From positions 1 to 64,000 of the forward strand of contig NZ_JAOQNS010000006.1 of the NCBI RefSeq assembly GCF_025961475.1: DNA of 64,000 nt, given 5' to 3'. This DNA comes from Rhodobium gokarnense. Its GTDB lineage: Bacteria; Pseudomonadota; Alphaproteobacteria; Rhizobiales; Rhodobiaceae. Positions within the stretch are counted from its first letter, which is position 1. Each line of letters begins with the position of its first letter. Positions 616-8,149 of this stretch are shown one piece after another. Made by a program: the position numbers and the translations under genes. The notes under the pieces were generated by a model. The model was not told where the DNA came from and made no database searches. It worked only from the letters and a program-made list of their open reading frames with translations.

Positions 616-819
616 TCAGCGCATGAAATATCCGGTCATACAAGCGGTCTTGTCGCTTACATGATGTCCGAAAGGCGTTGGGATGAAGCGCCACCTTTTG
701 TCGGGAATTCCTTCAGTTCGCCGATCGTTTTTGGCGGGTGCCACTAGCAGATCCAAATTCCCATGCCATTTCCCTAGGCGGCTGAAATATGCAGTGCGTA
801 TGTCGGGAGCTACGCTCAT
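616..819 (-). CDS. possible small hypothetical protein (67 aa), weak
   Basis: The only support is position: the ATG overlaps the stop of the upstream propeller gene in an ATGA arrangement, as translationally coupled genes often do. The product is basic, has no signal peptide or hydrophobic segment, and I do not recognise it. It could be the truncated end of an older gene, or a chance frame. Confidence 0.25.
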   Translation of the reverse strand: MSVAPDIRTAYFSRLGKWHGNLDLLVAPAKNDRRTEGIPDKRWRFIPTPFGHHVSDKTACMTGYFMR

Positions 820-2153
820 TGAAAAGCAAATAAACTTTTCAGTGAATTGAGATCGTGAATCTTTCCCGCATTTTTCTCTTTGTTTTTAGCGAATTCGGAC
901 GCCGCTTTATAAGTGCGCGGCCCTGCAATGCCGTCAATGTAACCGACCGGATAACCTCTCTCCGACAACAGCCGCTGTATTTTGCGAATTTCGGGGTCGC
1001 CAGTGATTCCTGTACCATCGTTTTCGCCCCGTCTATCATAGCGGACGATTAAGCGGCGCTCGCGAGAAATAGCGACAGCGAATGCCCCAGATGGATCGAT
1101 TGCAATGTCGGTGGGCACGAAAGGCAGGCGGATTTCACCGATCTTGTCCAGTGTCGTTGAGTTCTGCGCGCGCGAGAATTGGACTATTTCCGGACGGCTT
1201 TGGTAGCCAAGCCAGATGACCGACTGATCGCAAGAACTCGCAATGAGGTTCGCGGGCCGGATGATGTCGGTGTGTTCATAGAACCTGTTCTCCACCTTTT
1301 TTCCAACGCCGGGGACCACCGATAACGTGTCGAGCGACTGCGAAATCGGCTCATAGTCAACGAGGGCGAGGTATCCGGTTAAGGAAGCAGCAATTACGAA
1401 AGAAGATGACGCTCCCTTCCTGCATGAATGTGCGCCGGTCCAGCCGTGCACAGCCAGCGGGCTCGGATTCTCCGACGTTGAGCGCCACGCAAGGAAGCCA
1501 CTGGCTCTTTTTTGGCTTGTATCGACCGTAATAAGCATAGGAGATTGTGCAGCGTTTGCGAACATTACCTCGCTTGTGGGATCCCACCAAACCTCGGAAA
1601 TCCCGATCGACGTGTCAAAAAATAAACGGGGCGCGTGGCGCAGATTTTTGGGATTGGCAATGTCTACAAATAATAGTCCCTTCTTGTTGCTCTTTAAGTC
1701 CGCAATGATCAACTGTTCAGTCGCTGAGTAGCTTAACGTCGGCCATACAAGGTCATCATCAAGTGTTAGCTTGCCGAGCCGTTTGAGGTCGCTCGAAAGG
1801 GATTCCAGCACTGGCTTTCCCTCCTGGATACCAACGACAAAAAGGACATCGCCTGTTTCCGAAAGTGCGATGTCGAACGCCGTGAAATCGAGGTCAACAC
1901 GAGCCGGTTTCTCCAAATCTTCTGAGGCAAATCGCATGACGGTCGAGTCGGTCCCCGCGTCATTGCCCATCACGAAAATTTGCGCCCCCGCAACTTCCAG
2001 CCCTAACGGTTCGATTGGCATTGAAACAGGCTGGTTAGGGAGGAGCGTGCCTGTTTGCACCGACGACGCATTGAGAGATCCAGCGGTGGCATGGTCTATT
2101 GCCATCGGTGGGAATGCCACTGAGATGGCAAGCCAAAACCGGCACCCGACCAT
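816..2153 (-). CDS. secreted beta-propeller-like protein with C-terminal peptidoglycan-binding domain
   Basis: A protein of 445 aa from the ATG at 2153, which has a good AGGCGG ribosome site six bases upstream. A frame-equivalent ATG at 2180 overlaps the upstream gene and has no such site. The N-terminus is a signal peptide (hydrophobic to about residue 24). The middle has repeating beta-strand-like segments ending in short hydrophobic runs, reminiscent of YVTN/WD-type propellers, but no family motif is decisive. The last ~60 residues contain IRKIQRLLSERGYPVGYIDG and GPRTY, the signature of the PG_binding_1 fold. It is the last clear gene of a three-gene minus-strand operon behind two secreted proteases, 10 bases after the second. 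Inference: a cell-wall-attached partner or scaffold for the proteases. The propeller assignment is tentative; the binding domain is fairly safe. Confidence 0.65.
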   Translation of the reverse strand: MVGCRFWLAISVAFPPMAIDHATAGSLNASSVQTGTLLPNQPVSMPIEPLGLEVAGAQIFVMGNDAGTDSTVMRFASEDLEKPARVDLDFTAFDIALSETGDVLFVVGIQEGKPVLESLSSDLKRLGKLTLDDDLVWPTLSYSATEQLIIADLKSNKKGLLFVDIANPKNLRHAPRLFFDTSIGISEVWWDPTSEVMFANAAQSPMLITVDTSQKRASGFLAWRSTSENPSPLAVHGWTGAHSCRKGASSSFVIAASLTGYLALVDYEPISQSLDTLSVVPGVGKKVENRFYEHTDIIRPANLIASSCDQSVIWLGYQSRPEIVQFSRAQNSTTLDKIGEIRLPFVPTDIAIDPSGAFAVAISRERRLIVRYDRRGENDGTGITGDPEIRKIQRLLSERGYPVGYIDGIAGPRTYKAASEFAKNKEKNAGKIHDLNSLKSLFAFQ

Positions 2154-2163
2154 TTTTAGCCGC

Positions 2164-3411
2164 CTATTCGAACCAGTCATAGGCCAGTTGTTCCTTAATA
2201 GTGGTTGACGGTAGTTTCTCGTCGCTCTCCAATATCGGCGTGATCACCAATTCCAAATGATCAAAGGGGCGTTGCCCCTCCACCGCGCCGTCGGTAAGAC
2301 TCAAAAGACTTTTCAATTTTTTCTGTATATCGGGAATAATGAATTCGCCGTCCCGGCCATCATGGCGGGTTTTCTTAAGCTCAAAAATAGGAGGATCATC
2401 GGTGGCAGTACGCAGCCGCAGTCGGGCCATTGGACTGATGACTATGTTGTCGGCGTTTGGTTGCCGAATCTTCATATGAGGCTGCACAGAAAGATGAATT
2501 TTTTTAATTTTTGGTCCGCCACCGATGATTTTCTTGTAGTGAACACTTAAAGAACCATCTCTTCTACTTTCAGCCTCCCAGCTGAAATTAGAAGCGATTT
2601 CCTCAAGATTAGCTTCGACCTTGTTTAAGCGTAAATGAAGCGGCGGGTCGTCATCGGACACCTCGCCAACCGTTTTCAGTAGCCAGTCGATTTTCCTGTT
2701 CATCTCGATAACGCGAAAATGCCCGATAAGAGGCAGGGCATACTCAATCGGGATCATCAGCGTGGCTTCATCGTCATCCTTCGCAGTCCCCTTGACAACG
2801 CCGACCACCGTGCCGTCATCAAGATAGACTGGACTGCCGCTCTGACCAGGTCCGATTTTGACGTTCAGGGTCCAAGCGAAGGAAACCTCCGCATTGCTGG
2901 CATCATTAAAGGCGGCTAGTCTGCGCTTGTAAGCTTCTCCCGAGAAACCGGAGGTCAAGAATTTTGGCGGACTGGATTGATCTATGCTCAGCGTATCACC
3001 GATTGTCAGTGCTGCCGGACGCTTTTGACCGTACGGGAGTTGCAGCTTAAGTAGGACAAGATCCAGGCTTTCCAGCGCTGAGATGTATTGCGCCGAGATC
3101 GATTGCGCTTTCACGTCTCCAATTCGGCCCGTGATCTTGATCCTATTTGCGTTGTCTTCTTTTAATTTTTCAAAAAAGTGTTCAGTTGTCAGAACAAAGC
3201 CATCGCTGCTAACGATAAAGCCAGTGGCGTGACTTTCTGAGGCGTCGTCAACACCGACGAGGTCGCCGGTTTGGGGCGTTCCTAATGCGGTTAGATAGAC
3301 GAGACTCTTGCGAACAAGGTCATGTGCTTGGTTTGCATCGGACGCCGCCGGCACTGACATTAGCGCTACGCTTAAGAGCGACACCAGAAAACGTGATAAC
3401 ATCCGGAACAT
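2164..3411 (-). CDS. secreted trypsin-like serine protease with C-terminal extension
   Basis: A 415-aa protein with a signal peptide (about residues 1-27). The chymotrypsin-fold triad is visible: His78 in LTTEHFF, Asp117 in ESLDLVLL and Ser191 in GPGQSGSPVY, with the usual VVGVVKG strand after the serine. The arrangement resembles S1C/DegP-type or peptidase S1 family proteins, but there is no PDZ domain. The ~170 residues after the protease domain (from about 245) have no recognised family and may be a binding module. Start at ATG 3411, preceded by AGGA eight bases upstream. The gene begins 2 bases after the astacin-like gene ends, so the two are surely co-transcribed. Expected to act in the periplasm or outside the cell; the substrate is unknown. 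Confidence 0.8.
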   Translation of the reverse strand: MFRMLSRFLVSLLSVALMSVPAASDANQAHDLVRKSLVYLTALGTPQTGDLVGVDDASESHATGFIVSSDGFVLTTEHFFEKLKEDNANRIKITGRIGDVKAQSISAQYISALESLDLVLLKLQLPYGQKRPAALTIGDTLSIDQSSPPKFLTSGFSGEAYKRRLAAFNDASNAEVSFAWTLNVKIGPGQSGSPVYLDDGTVVGVVKGTAKDDDEATLMIPIEYALPLIGHFRVIEMNRKIDWLLKTVGEVSDDDPPLHLRLNKVEANLEEIASNFSWEAESRRDGSLSVHYKKIIGGGPKIKKIHLSVQPHMKIRQPNADNIVISPMARLRLRTATDDPPIFELKKTRHDGRDGEFIIPDIQKKLKSLLSLTDGAVEGQRPFDHLELVITPILESDEKLPSTTIKEQLAYDWFE

Positions 3412-3413
3412 GA

Positions 3414-4211
3414 CTAGTTCCTGCCGTAGATATACTGAACAGCGAGTATATCGAACTCGCTCAAGACGCCATCATTACTGTAAGTCGGATTACAGTAATT
3501 CATGACGGAATGCAAATCCCACGGAGTCAGTAACGTGTCGCCGTCGGTTCCTTGCCGTTCGTCGCATTCGCCGGGCGTATCGGGGCGGTTTTGTTCGTGT
3601 GCAAATCCGATCGCGTGCCCGAATTCATGCACCGCAATCACGCGGTTGCAGTAGTCGAGCATAGACTGGCACCCTTGGCTCCAATTGTTGTAAGTGAAGT
3701 TCAGCACCATGCCGTTGCGAAGCCCGCCAATGAACTTGCCAAGGAATTTCACATGTGGACCGGAATCCTCGACCGCGATGCGAATGCCGCCGGCATTTTT
3801 ATGACATTTTCCCCAACCGAGAAATTTTAGGCCGGATGCCGCCTCCCAGGTATCGCGTATGGCATTGCGCACGATCATCCGCGCGTGGATGAATTCCGGT
3901 TCGAGGTCTTCCCAGCAGACATTGACTTCGTTAAACGGCCACTTCGCGGCCATCAGTGGATAGGCACGGTCGACAATATCTGCTTCCTGTTCTTTGGTCA
4001 GGGTTCTCAAAAACTCGGAGCGTGGCGATTGTCTTCTCCCTATTTCCAATGCTGCGTCGCCAATGGTTTTCTTCGGTGGTATCGCAATCTTGACTCTCGC
4101 ACCTTCTTCATTGGCTCGAATGGTGTCGAGGACGACCGTTTGCTGGCCGCTCGATGCTGATGTCAATGCGAGAAAGATCAAACCAGCCGACAAATGCATC
4201 TTTTTTCTCAT
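3414..4211 (-). CDS. secreted astacin-like (M12A) zinc metalloprotease
   Basis: A 265-aa protein with an N-terminal signal peptide (about residues 1-22). The zinc-binding motif HEFGHAIGFAHEQNRPD (His195, Glu196, His199, His205, Glu206) is close to the astacin consensus HExxHxxGFxHExxRxDRD. It is followed by a Met-turn SVMNY at Met237. The first ~90 residues probably act as a propeptide. The start at ATG 4211 is chosen over 4217 because AGGGG lies eight bases before it and only two before the other. It is the first gene of the three-gene operon with the serine protease and the propeller protein. Astacins hydrolyse peptides outside the cell, and bacterial members are often secreted virulence or nutritional proteases; which applies here is not visible. 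Confidence 0.85.
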   Translation of the reverse strand: MRKKMHLSAGLIFLALTSASSGQQTVVLDTIRANEEGARVKIAIPPKKTIGDAALEIGRRQSPRSEFLRTLTKEQEADIVDRAYPLMAAKWPFNEVNVCWEDLEPEFIHARMIVRNAIRDTWEAASGLKFLGWGKCHKNAGGIRIAVEDSGPHVKFLGKFIGGLRNGMVLNFTYNNWSQGCQSMLDYCNRVIAVHEFGHAIGFAHEQNRPDTPGECDERQGTDGDTLLTPWDLHSVMNYCNPTYSNDGVLSEFDILAVQYIYGRN

Positions 4212-4289
4212 AAGCATAACCCCTGCCGTTTCAGCAATTGCCTAATAGCCTCCATGCGGGCTACAATTTAAAGAATACACGAAAAAATA

Positions 4290-4481
4290 TTACATCAAAA
4301 CCATTGTTTGTATTTTGATTCCCTCGAAGTTCTCATCGGCTATCGATCTGACAGCTTCGAAGTTTTTCTGTGTCGCACGGCCGTGGAATGCACCTTCGCA
4401 TGGAACGGTTATTCCCGCCGTTTGGCGAAGGATCGTGGGAGAGTTGTGGTATAAGCCGATACGTTGATTAACGTCGTCCAT
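4290..4481 (-). CDS. possible small hypothetical protein (63 aa)
   Basis: A short frame starting at ATG 4481, with GAGG a few bases upstream, oriented towards the protease operon. The product has the look of a compact soluble domain (ITVPCEGAFHGRATQKNF in the middle), but I cannot place it in a family. It lies in the otherwise intergenic space between divergent protease genes. Its 3' end overlaps an inverted repeat. It may be a chance frame. Confidence 0.35.
   Translation of the reverse strand: MDDVNQRIGLYHNSPTILRQTAGITVPCEGAFHGRATQKNFEAVRSIADENFEGIKIQTMVLM
4294..4319. promoter_or_regulatory. inverted repeat upstream of the protease operon
   Basis: ATCAAAA and TTTTGAT form a perfect 7-base inverted repeat with a 12-base spacer, about 80-105 bases upstream of the astacin-like gene. 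The symmetry and place would suit a dimeric repressor or activator site, but no regulator is encoded nearby. AT-rich DNA produces such repeats by chance, so this is only a candidate. Confidence 0.3.
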
Positions 4482-4642
4482 ATCGGCCTCACAACAGATA
4501 GTCCGCAAGATATTGTTATCTCGCGTAAAAATGTATGTCGACCCTAAGAAATATCAATGATACGAGCGTGAAAATTAGTTGAAAATTGCGTTAATTCAAA
4601 TGAATGTTATGATGCTTGCGAAGACAACAGGGGAGCATGAAG

Positions 4643-6604
4643 ATGTTGGTTTTAAAAGCGTCAATTATTTCGTTGTGTTGCCTGGTCTTGGTGTTCGGTC
4701 AGTTTCCAGCTCAGGCTGCCGATATCACAGGTCAAAGCACCTATCACACCGACGGCCGCACGACTCCGCGTTTGGATTTCGTGACGCCTGAGGCGATCGA
4801 AAGAAAGATGTTCGTCATTCCGTCTGACGCGATGGTCATCGGCGAGAAGACAGCTAAATCGATGCGAAATGACGTGCTCCAATTTTTGGCCGCCAATTCC
4901 AATCGTTATGGGCTTACAGACAGTGCGGCCGAACTGAAGCTGGTCGACGAACAGGAATCCCTCTTAGGAAAACATTATCGTTATCAACAGTTTCTTGGTG
5001 GACGGGAAGTCATTACTGGCGAGATCGTCGTCACCGTCGACAAGAACGGCAATGTCACACGCGTCTCCAACAACGTCTATCCAACGACGACCACGGCAGC
5101 GGCCAACAAAAACGAACTTGCCGTGCTTGACCAGGAGCGTGCCCTTGATATCGCCTGGCAGGATTTAAATGTCGAGCAAGGCGCCGAGGTACTCGAGCTG
5201 CCTTCCGTCGATCTCAAATACTGGCCGTCAGAGAACAGTTTCATGCTAGTCTATGACGTCATGGTAGCTGTCAACAAACCATATGGTTATTGGCAGTATC
5301 TTGTGGATGCTGAAACCGGCGAAATCATTCAAAAACAAAACCGGGCCACCAACCTTGGAGAACATGAGAAATCGGGACATGTGGAACGCGGAACCGGACC
5401 GGTCGCAGACCGCCGTAACCTGTTTCGCGCCTACGAACTGAAGATCGTCGAAAACCGTATGAAGAATCTGTCTGCCCCGTTGGTCGAAGTTGCCGCTGAA
5501 AGTGCAGACGGAACCGCTTTGGTGTTCGATGGCGATCCGGTAACCACCTTGCAGGACGCCACGTTGCGTGACGATTCCCTGGCCAGCGCATTTGATCAAG
5601 CCTATCGCACGCGGCCGCTCCAGGACCTGCGTCGGGAAAGCGGTGTGTTCCACCTGGATGGGCCGTGGGTGCGCATCGTCGATTTCGAGTCTCCGACCGA
5701 CGAACCCTCCACTTCCACCGACGGGAATTGGACGGCAAAACGTGGCGATACTGCGTTCAACGATGCCATGACCTATTATCACATCGATCAGACGCAGAGA
5801 TACATTCAATCCTTGGGGTTCGCAAACATCATCGCCCGACCGATCGAAGTCGATGCAAACGGTGTGAGCGGCAACGACAACTCCTATCATCGACCCAACG
5901 GGGTTACGGGGAAATCGGGTATACTGTCCTTTGGTCATGGCTGCGTGGACGACAATGAGGACGCGGACGTCATCTGGCACGAATATGGTCATGCCGTGCA
6001 TGCCGATGTTGCCGCCAACAGATGGCGCGGCGGCGACACCCGTGCGATGGGCGAAGGTTTTGGTGACTACTTGGCAGCGACCCTCAGTCTCCGTAAAGAA
6101 AACGGAAATGCGTTTCAGACCAACAAGGTATTCAACTGGGACGGAATAGGTACCGGGGATCCGAATTGTCGCGGTTGGAGTGGTCGCCGGGTAAACCTTT
6201 CAACCGACGTAAAGTATGATCCGTCGAGGTTTTACAGCGACCACCAACCGATTGGCGGAGGCGCGATTTCTGACGAGTTGTGGGCTTCACCACTGTTTCA
6301 GGCGCAACTTATGCTAATCGGCGCCGGAAAGCCGCCGGAAGATGGCGACAAGATCGTTATTCAAGGCATGTTTGGTCTAAGCTCCAGCGGTGCCAAGATG
6401 CACGAACTCGCACAATTCACAGTGCTTGCAGCGCAAAGCCTATTCCCTGGCGACATCCATGCGGCAACGTTCATCCGGAAATTTCAGGACTACAACATCT
6501 GCAATCCGAATGACTCCACCGTATGTGCCATGCCAGGGTCTCCCGGCGCTCCGGGAGTCGCTGGCGCAGGGTCCGACGGAGAAAATGCGGCCGCAAAGAG
6601 GTAG
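4643..6604 (+). CDS. secreted fungalysin-like (M36/M4-type) metallopeptidase with FTP/PepSY propeptide
   Basis: A 653-aa precursor. Start at ATG 4643: AGGGGAG ends seven bases before it, whereas the ATG at 4637 is too close. A signal peptide covers about residues 1-24. Residues ~50-220 look like the FTP and PepSY propeptide of thermolysin/fungalysin proteases (HYRYQQFLGGREVITGEIVV, then YLVDAETGEIIQKQNR). The catalytic domain carries HEYGH (His446, Glu447, His450) and the third zinc ligand in GEGFGDYLA (Glu471), the M36-type pattern. The C-terminus has a short collagen-like tail of Gly-X-Y triplets (GSPGAPGVAGAG). It is transcribed divergently from the astacin/serine protease operon and followed by the HAD-M28 gene in the same direction. 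Role: secreted broad-specificity endopeptidase activated by propeptide removal. Confidence 0.85.
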   Translation: MLVLKASIISLCCLVLVFGQFPAQAADITGQSTYHTDGRTTPRLDFVTPEAIERKMFVIPSDAMVIGEKTAKSMRNDVLQFLAANSNRYGLTDSAAELKLVDEQESLLGKHYRYQQFLGGREVITGEIVVTVDKNGNVTRVSNNVYPTTTTAAANKNELAVLDQERALDIAWQDLNVEQGAEVLELPSVDLKYWPSENSFMLVYDVMVAVNKPYGYWQYLVDAETGEIIQKQNRATNLGEHEKSGHVERGTGPVADRRNLFRAYELKIVENRMKNLSAPLVEVAAESADGTALVFDGDPVTTLQDATLRDDSLASAFDQAYRTRPLQDLRRESGVFHLDGPWVRIVDFESPTDEPSTSTDGNWTAKRGDTAFNDAMTYYHIDQTQRYIQSLGFANIIARPIEVDANGVSGNDNSYHRPNGVTGKSGILSFGHGCVDDNEDADVIWHEYGHAVHADVAANRWRGGDTRAMGEGFGDYLAATLSLRKENGNAFQTNKVFNWDGIGTGDPNCRGWSGRRVNLSTDVKYDPSRFYSDHQPIGGGAISDELWASPLFQAQLMLIGAGKPPEDGDKIVIQGMFGLSSSGAKMHELAQFTVLAAQSLFPGDIHAATFIRKFQDYNICNPNDSTVCAMPGSPGAPGVAGAGSDGENAAAKR

Positions 6605-6730
6605 GCATCGTGCACGCCCGTGCAAGCGTTCTGATCAATGACACGCCTGTGCCGGTCGTGAGGCGAATCCTTGTCCGAAAATGACAGGCGACGATTCCGA
6701 AATGCATTCGGCACCATCAGGAGAATTGCA

Positions 6731-8149
6731 ATGAGGATCGTTCTGTTTGATCTCGGCAACACTCTTGTCGACGGCTATAACAAAGTGCTCGACGGTGCTA
6801 CCGAGTTGCTCGAATCGGTTGGAACCGTTCGCGATCCGGATGGACTACCGGTCCAATTGGGACTGGTGTCCGACTATTATTGGGCGGCTACTGAGGAGGA
6901 AAACGACCGGCTTCATCAGGAGTACTACAAAATACTTGAGGCAACAGGATTGGCGCCGCATTTCAGGCCATTCCAGCAGCGCGTCACGCTGTCCACGGCG
7001 ATTGGGGTCGGCAAACCCGATCGTCGGATTTTCGAGGCTGCCCTGAAGAAGCTGGGAGATGAGGTGCACTTTCATCATGCGCTTTTTATCACCGTGACGG
7101 AGGAGCATGTCATCGGCGCACGCCGTCTGGGCATGATGGCGATACATTTTAAGGGCCCAGGTCAGGAGAAGGGCGAAGTTGACAAGCTGGTCGATCTCAT
7201 TCCGATCATCGAACGCCTGCTGGCCTATTCGCCATGCTGCAAAAAACGTGGTGAGGCGGTCGGACGCTTCAAGAGCCAGGCTGCCAAGAGCAAAAGACAA
7301 GACCGTTCTATCAGTACTCAGCTTGCGAAAGTGAGCGAGCAAAGGCTGCGCGACACGATCGTTGGCCTCGGTGATTTCGGCACGCGGTTTTCGTATTCCA
7401 GCGGCATTGCACGGGTACCCACTTGGATTCACAATCGCTTTGTTGCGCAGGGTTACACTGGCGAACGGGCTCCCCGATATCAACCCTTCAACATGCCAGG
7501 CGGCGGGGAAGTCCAACAGCGAAATGTTCTCTGCGGACCCGCCACCAACGGCACGGGGTTCGTCCTCGTGTGCGCCCACTATGACTCGATTTCCGAACTG
7601 CCTGACGCCAATGCGCCGGGCGCAGACGACAACGCCTCCGGCGTCGCAGTGCTTCTGGAATTGGCGCATATCCTAAGGGATGTCGAGCTGAAGCGGGGCG
7701 TAATGTTCGTAGCCTTCGGTGGCGAAGAGCAGGGCTTGTATGGTTCATCCCATTGCGCCGAAATTGCGGCGTCCGATCAATGGCCGATCGATGTCGTCAT
7801 TAATCTCGATATGATAGCTTATCAGGGTGTCGACAAACCCGGCCACATCGTCGTCGAATACGATCAAGGTAACCGCAATCCAAAAAACGATGCCGCAGCG
7901 AAGGCTTATGGGCTGATGATGGCGCAGGCCGCCGCCGATTATACCTCGCTTGAGGTCGAGCACACCGACATCTGGAATAGTGACTATATGCCATTTGAAG
8001 AGAAAGGCTACGCCTGCATAGGTGTCTACGAGGCTACCGATAACCCCCGATACCACAAGACAACAGACACAATTGAAAATATTGAATTTCCTCACCTCGT
8101 GGAGGTCACAAAAATGGTCCTGGCCACTACTATGCGGATCGGCGCGTGA
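6731..8149 (+). CDS. HAD-like domain fused to M28 zinc aminopeptidase
   Basis: A 472-aa protein. Start at ATG 6731, with AGGAG eight bases upstream; the frame is open further 5' but without a ribosome site. Residues ~1-165 are HAD-like: FDLGNTLVD carries the nucleophile Asp7, and VGKPD carries the motif III lysine (Lys95). However, the second aspartate of motif I is Gly9, and motif IV reads FITVTEEHVIGARRLGM, without the usual GD acid pair, so phosphatase activity is doubtful. After a basic linker, residues ~200-472 form an M28 aminopeptidase with every metal ligand: His283 (AHYDS), Asp299 (GADDNASG), catalytic Glu332 and zinc Glu333 (GGEEQGL), Asp360 (NLDM) and His442 (YHKTTDT). There is no signal peptide, so unlike most M28 enzymes it should be cytoplasmic. 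It follows the fungalysin-like gene by 126 bases. Possible role: final breakdown of peptides released by the secreted proteases. I know of no standard name for this fusion. Confidence 0.8.
   Translation: MRIVLFDLGNTLVDGYNKVLDGATELLESVGTVRDPDGLPVQLGLVSDYYWAATEEENDRLHQEYYKILEATGLAPHFRPFQQRVTLSTAIGVGKPDRRIFEAALKKLGDEVHFHHALFITVTEEHVIGARRLGMMAIHFKGPGQEKGEVDKLVDLIPIIERLLAYSPCCKKRGEAVGRFKSQAAKSKRQDRSISTQLAKVSEQRLRDTIVGLGDFGTRFSYSSGIARVPTWIHNRFVAQGYTGERAPRYQPFNMPGGGEVQQRNVLCGPATNGTGFVLVCAHYDSISELPDANAPGADDNASGVAVLLELAHILRDVELKRGVMFVAFGGEEQGLYGSSHCAEIAASDQWPIDVVINLDMIAYQGVDKPGHIVVEYDQGNRNPKNDAAAKAYGLMMAQAAADYTSLEVEHTDIWNSDYMPFEEKGYACIGVYEATDNPRYHKTTDTIENIEFPHLVEVTKMVLATTMRIGA

Follow-up and report, generated by a model that had tools for sequence, protein, structure and literature searches.

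In a 64,000-nucleotide window of the Rhodobium gokarnense genome, we identified a gene that joins a HAD-like domain to an M28 aminopeptidase. On balance, its product is probably a genuine two-domain protein, in which a pseudo-HAD domain would serve a competent, probably intracellular aminopeptidase as a module for binding or regulation. Each part is of a kind already known; their combination, and the degenerate family of HADs that supplies the N-terminal half, appear to be new variants.

The gene is a single uninterrupted coding frame of 472 amino acids on the forward strand (positions 6731-8149), with an ATG at 6731, a stop codon ending at 8149, and an AGGAG ribosome-binding site, read directly from the sequence, at 6719-6723 on the same strand, 7 nt 5' of the ATG. 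It comprises a capless HAD domain (residues 1-165, positions 6731-7225; Pfam PF00702, E = 1.4e-7 on the HAD half, and alignments), a basic and hydrophilic linker (residues 166-186, 7226-7288; hydropathy scan), and an M28 aminopeptidase domain (residues 187-472, 7289-8146; Pfam, PDB sequence matches, and model comparison). An earlier note made from the letters alone had proposed a HAD-M28 fusion in one open reading frame, and the exact coordinates, the Pfam matches on both halves, and the ribosome-binding site uphold it. A GC pattern typical by codon position (first high, second low) runs through most of both halves and is flat in the linker, homology to HAD and to M28 lies in the same reading frame on either side of the joint, and the other two linker frames contain stops and no signal peptide. 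No frame near the joint offers the M28 part a separate start codon or signal peptide. A frameshift joining two genes was considered and ruled out, since the continuous codon bias, the same-frame homology, and the stops in the other linker frames give no sign of one; together with the intact reading frame, they indicate that the fusion is real at the sequence level. Promoter and terminator signals around the gene did not exceed chance, and no RNA family was found there. The protein was also considered as an anti-phage defence protein, for which PADLOC returned no match.

The sequence identifies the C-terminal 286 residues as a complete, predicted di-zinc M28 aminopeptidase of the LapA/AAP type. 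Pfam Peptidase_M28 matches residues 275-466 (E = 7.6e-40), and the similarity to M28 enzymes begins cleanly at residue 187, corresponding to residue 3 of mature Vibrio AAP. Alignment to 1AMP and YwaD confirms the earlier reading that every metal ligand (H283, D300, E333, D360, and H442) and the catalytic Glu (E332) are kept, with N301 in the place of AAP D118; these sites are assigned by AAP numbering, which we take to be established knowledge on the Vibrio enzyme. The domain match, the five ligands, and the catalytic Glu place the protein in peptidase family M28. Within its own genome it clearly outscores every other M28 match, at 140 bits against 20-45 bits. In a full-length structure model that is confident in the M28 half only, residues 187-472 superpose on LapB, LapA, and AAP with Z of 28-30, at 22-24% or 16-22% identity.

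The C-terminal domain thus resembles LapA and LapB of Legionella, AAP of Vibrio proteolyticus, and YwaD/BSAP, down to the metal ligands and the catalytic Glu. In contrast to these enzymes, the window protein has no export signal, and its HAD domain occupies the position where secreted M28 enzymes carry a signal peptide and a propeptide. A hydropathy scan found no signal-peptide-like hydrophobic stretch at its N-terminus or in the linker, as the earlier note had stated, while all four upstream neighbours have one. With the HAD domain in place of the signal peptide and propeptide that mark secreted LapA/AAP-type enzymes, the aminopeptidase probably remains in the cytoplasm. The accompanying remark that M28 enzymes are usually exported needs a qualifier, as M28 proteins that lack an evident signal peptide also occur in a rhizobial genome (G950) and in Azospirillum, one in each. 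These two are 51% identical to each other, carry a different N-terminal domain, and adjoin an M43-like peptidase that also lacks a signal peptide. The M28 and M43-like pair (L053, 8756-13478; L064, 4617-6902) is conserved between the rhizobial genome and Azospirillum, and in L053 the M28 protein ends GCGCGCGGC and is followed by an ATP-grasp-like gene.

Directly upstream of the fusion gene, on the same strand and across a gap of 126 bp, lies an M36-type metallopeptidase gene (4616-6604, forward), whose product has a signal peptide, an FTP propeptide (Pfam E = 4.4e-11), a fungalysin-like M36 domain (1.2e-6), and an HEYGH motif. Three divergent genes on the reverse strand precede it, encoding an astacin-like metallopeptidase with a signal peptide (3414-4217; PF01400, 8.4e-8), a trypsin-like serine peptidase with a signal peptide (2164-3411; PF13365, 7.8e-12), and an exported protein whose C-terminus weakly matches peptidoglycan-binding domains (816-2180; PF09374/PF01471, below cut-off). 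Positions 816-6604 thus hold a cluster of four genes for exported products, of which three belong to distinct peptidase types (trypsin-like, astacin-like, and M36). GC content is 52.6% in the window's first 9 kb, at the start of the contig, compared with 63.0% beyond, and neither the HAD-M28 gene nor the M36 gene was found in two genomes of the same genus, so this low-GC region was probably acquired. A Burkholderia cenocepacia replicon carries, in the same order, genes for an M36-like and an M28 protein, both exported, that are 28% and 27% identical to their counterparts here; in two further Burkholderia records, the M36 and M28 queries match adjacent places.

This setting bears on our main alternative, that the fusion arose by accident: within recently acquired DNA, a deletion would have stripped a once secreted M28 enzyme of its signal peptide and joined what was left to a HAD gene lying upstream. 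The resulting protein would be stable, with a HAD half that contributes nothing to the peptidase. The presence of the gene in one genome only and its absence from the two congeners are consistent with such an event, as are the low GC content at the contig start (0.526 versus 0.630) and the secreted M36 and M28 pair of Burkholderia, which looks ancestral. However, the reading frame is intact, all M28 ligands are kept, the ribosome-binding site is good, the linker is well formed, and the HAD family also occurs beside M36-like peptidases in other genomes. We regard an accidental origin as a serious but lesser possibility.

The HAD half scores above the Pfam cut-off for Hydrolase (PF00702) and retains the motif I Asp, motif II Ser/Thr, and motif III Lys of the superfamily as D7 (in D-L-G-N-T, with G9), S47, and K95. 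The retention of D7 and K95, previously noted from the sequence, is borne out by the alignments. Structure predictions for this half are of low confidence (pLDDT mostly 31-54 in the HAD blocks of the full-length model, and a mean of 36.8 for the domain alone). Its motif IV reads F-I-T-V-T-E-E-H (residues 119-126), and the acids are absent from the canonical positions. Among the closest described systems is YihX (HAD4) of E. coli, an active alpha-D-glucose-1-phosphate phosphatase with a kcat/KM of 1.87 per mM per s (PMC4251788). The two share the motif I DLGN, the motif II Ser, the motif III KP, and a similar spacing of motif IV; YihX differs in that its motifs I and II lie further apart, in the DD of its motif IV (FFDDNADNI), and in being an active enzyme (PMC4251788). 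Gly9, which had been cited as a sign of a degenerate site, is not in itself evidence of degeneracy, because the active YihX has the same motif I. The claim that the motif IV acids are missing does stand: T121-V122 lie opposite the YihX DD, and the acids that bind Mg in a YihX-type motif IV are lacking.

Part of this loss is shared. Among 196 genomes searched, we found five relatives of the HAD domain (G1038, G1448, G1285, G1325, and G1450), all from a single different genus within the same order and 31-36% identical to it over the aligned domain; the identity to the G1038 protein is 39% over residues 2-141. Like the window domain, these proteins are capless and carry D-L-G-[DN]-T, S-D, and KP motifs and an unusual motif IV, [FL]ITENA[ED]HI in the relatives and FITVTEEHV here, summarised for the family as [FL]IT[EV]...[ED]H[IV]. 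They differ in that they stand alone or carry a C-terminal extension of about 130 amino acids, never an M28 domain, and in that they keep a motif IV Glu where the window protein has V122. The YihX DD is thus replaced by T-E in the five relatives, which have lost one acid, and by T-V in the window protein, which has lost both. HMMER aligns the relatives' Glu with the Asp of canonical HADs, which would allow them still to bind metal. The window domain belongs to a small, YihX-derived, degenerate family of capless HADs, seemingly undescribed, and most of its degeneracy is common to that family, the window protein having gone one step beyond. With the last motif IV acid gone, Mg-dependent phosphatase chemistry by this domain appears unlikely.

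Alternatively, the HAD half may still be an enzyme, with E124/E125 or water standing in for the motif IV acids, in which case the protein would be a bifunctional phosphatase and aminopeptidase acting, for example, on phosphopeptides. E124 and E125 might serve as alternative metal ligands, D7, S47, and K95 are kept, DLGN is the motif I of an active enzyme (PMC4251788), and the relatives retain a motif IV Glu. T121-V122 opposite the DD of YihX, H126 at the next position, and a site with no cap domain above it argue against catalysis, and we consider this alternative unlikely.

The neighbours of the HAD relatives provide a further line of evidence. The HAD proteins of G1038 and G1448 each carry the C-terminal extension and adjoin an M36-like peptidase (weak Pfam match, E = 0.0087; HEVGH motif), and the pattern TH....G..L.R.RF closes both the extension and the peptidase. 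In G1232, a related peptidase (32% identical) precedes a separately encoded copy of the extension that closes in the same way. The other three of the five relatives are HAD proteins with no adjoining peptidase, so the association between this family and M36-like peptidases is suggestive but not constant. Across three loci (L052, 9564-12119; L061, 3051-5056; L067, 115-2394), the tail is shared by the HAD protein, a 131-amino-acid protein, and M36-like peptidases that have no clear signal peptide, and it is possibly a sorting or partner-recognition module. Elsewhere in L061 (661-2818), a Radical SAM/SPASM-like protein adjoins a YSR/YAR-repeat peptide, and the M36-like peptidase, the 131-amino-acid protein, and a TolC-like protein follow; with the families assigned by eye, the whole looks like a peptide-modification cluster.

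The common tail of the relatives' HAD protein and its neighbouring peptidase, together with the signal peptides on all four upstream neighbours of the fusion, could also fit a HAD half that works in targeting or leaderless export, with the peptidase acting outside the cytoplasm. The window protein lacks the TH....G..L.R.RF tail and has a known export signal at neither end, which makes this a rather improbable reading.

The earlier note had also proposed a search for other HAD-M28 fusions, and ours found no second one. Homology searches covered fewer than 2000 genomes of one phylum; no homologue spanning both halves was found in 61 relatives, in 385 genomes of the class and 397 of the order (overlapping sets), or in plasmids, phages, and viral contigs. 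A scan of 84,980 genomes with six exact peptide stretches, which detects close relatives alone, likewise found no fusion, matching M28 proteins of Chryseobacterium and one ordinary HAD. Against 398 genomes of the phylum at 1e-6, the sole matches to the HAD half were the window protein itself and an ordinary HAD from the same genome; a profile of this half (A2) gave only weak matches in 299 genomes, and YihX and L004 as baits found no match in viral contigs. One candidate, an exported-looking protein of G007 with a C-terminal HAD domain (L013, 1348-2667), has DSGDT as motif I but was rejected as a member of the same family on the basis of its motif IV (VGNHLERD, of the form VGN....D). A literature search found no paper on HAD-M28 fusions. 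An assembly or sequencing error could account for an orphan fusion 6.7 kb from a contig start, but the absence of a stop or frame change, the continuous coding bias, and the lack, in every frame around the junction, of a separate start codon or signal peptide for the M28 part make this extremely improbable.

The fused reading frame, the intact M28 half, the missing signal peptide, and the loss of the motif IV acids are thus best read as a peptidase that stays in the cytoplasm and carries a non-catalytic HAD domain. The earlier note had described a cytoplasmic peptidase with a repurposed HAD domain as a sensor or binding module, and this is supported in part, on the same points and without the argument from Gly9. 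The M28 half would be a competent aminopeptidase held inside the cell for want of an export signal, and the HAD half, probably non-catalytic after the loss of its acids, would most likely be a binding, dimerising, or propeptide-like inhibitory module that controls it. The recurrence of the HAD family beside M36-like peptidases (in the window, G1038, and G1448) favours a pseudo-HAD module; that a single genome holds the fusion and that three of five relatives have no adjoining peptidase count against it. A precedent for a non-catalytic, partner-binding HAD is PcrP of Pseudomonas, which has been shown to lack activity and to bind protein partners; its subfamily (PcrP/PA2803) keeps the HAD fold without the catalytic residues (PMC12632274). 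Unlike the window domain, PcrP is a relative of C1-type phosphonatases with a shortened cap and no peptidase fusion. More tentatively, the capless pseudo-HAD family may partner with or regulate metallopeptidases and have been recruited more than once, here by fusion to an M28 domain beside an M36 peptidase and in the other genus by fusion to a tail-sharing domain beside an M36-like peptidase.

To our knowledge, few HAD pseudo-enzymes have a demonstrated role. If our reading is correct, a pseudo-HAD covalently joined to a metallopeptidase, with a small family recurring beside M36-like peptidases behind it, would offer a simple system for testing whether dead HAD domains regulate proteolysis. 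The same system could be used to examine how an exported type of aminopeptidase becomes internal.
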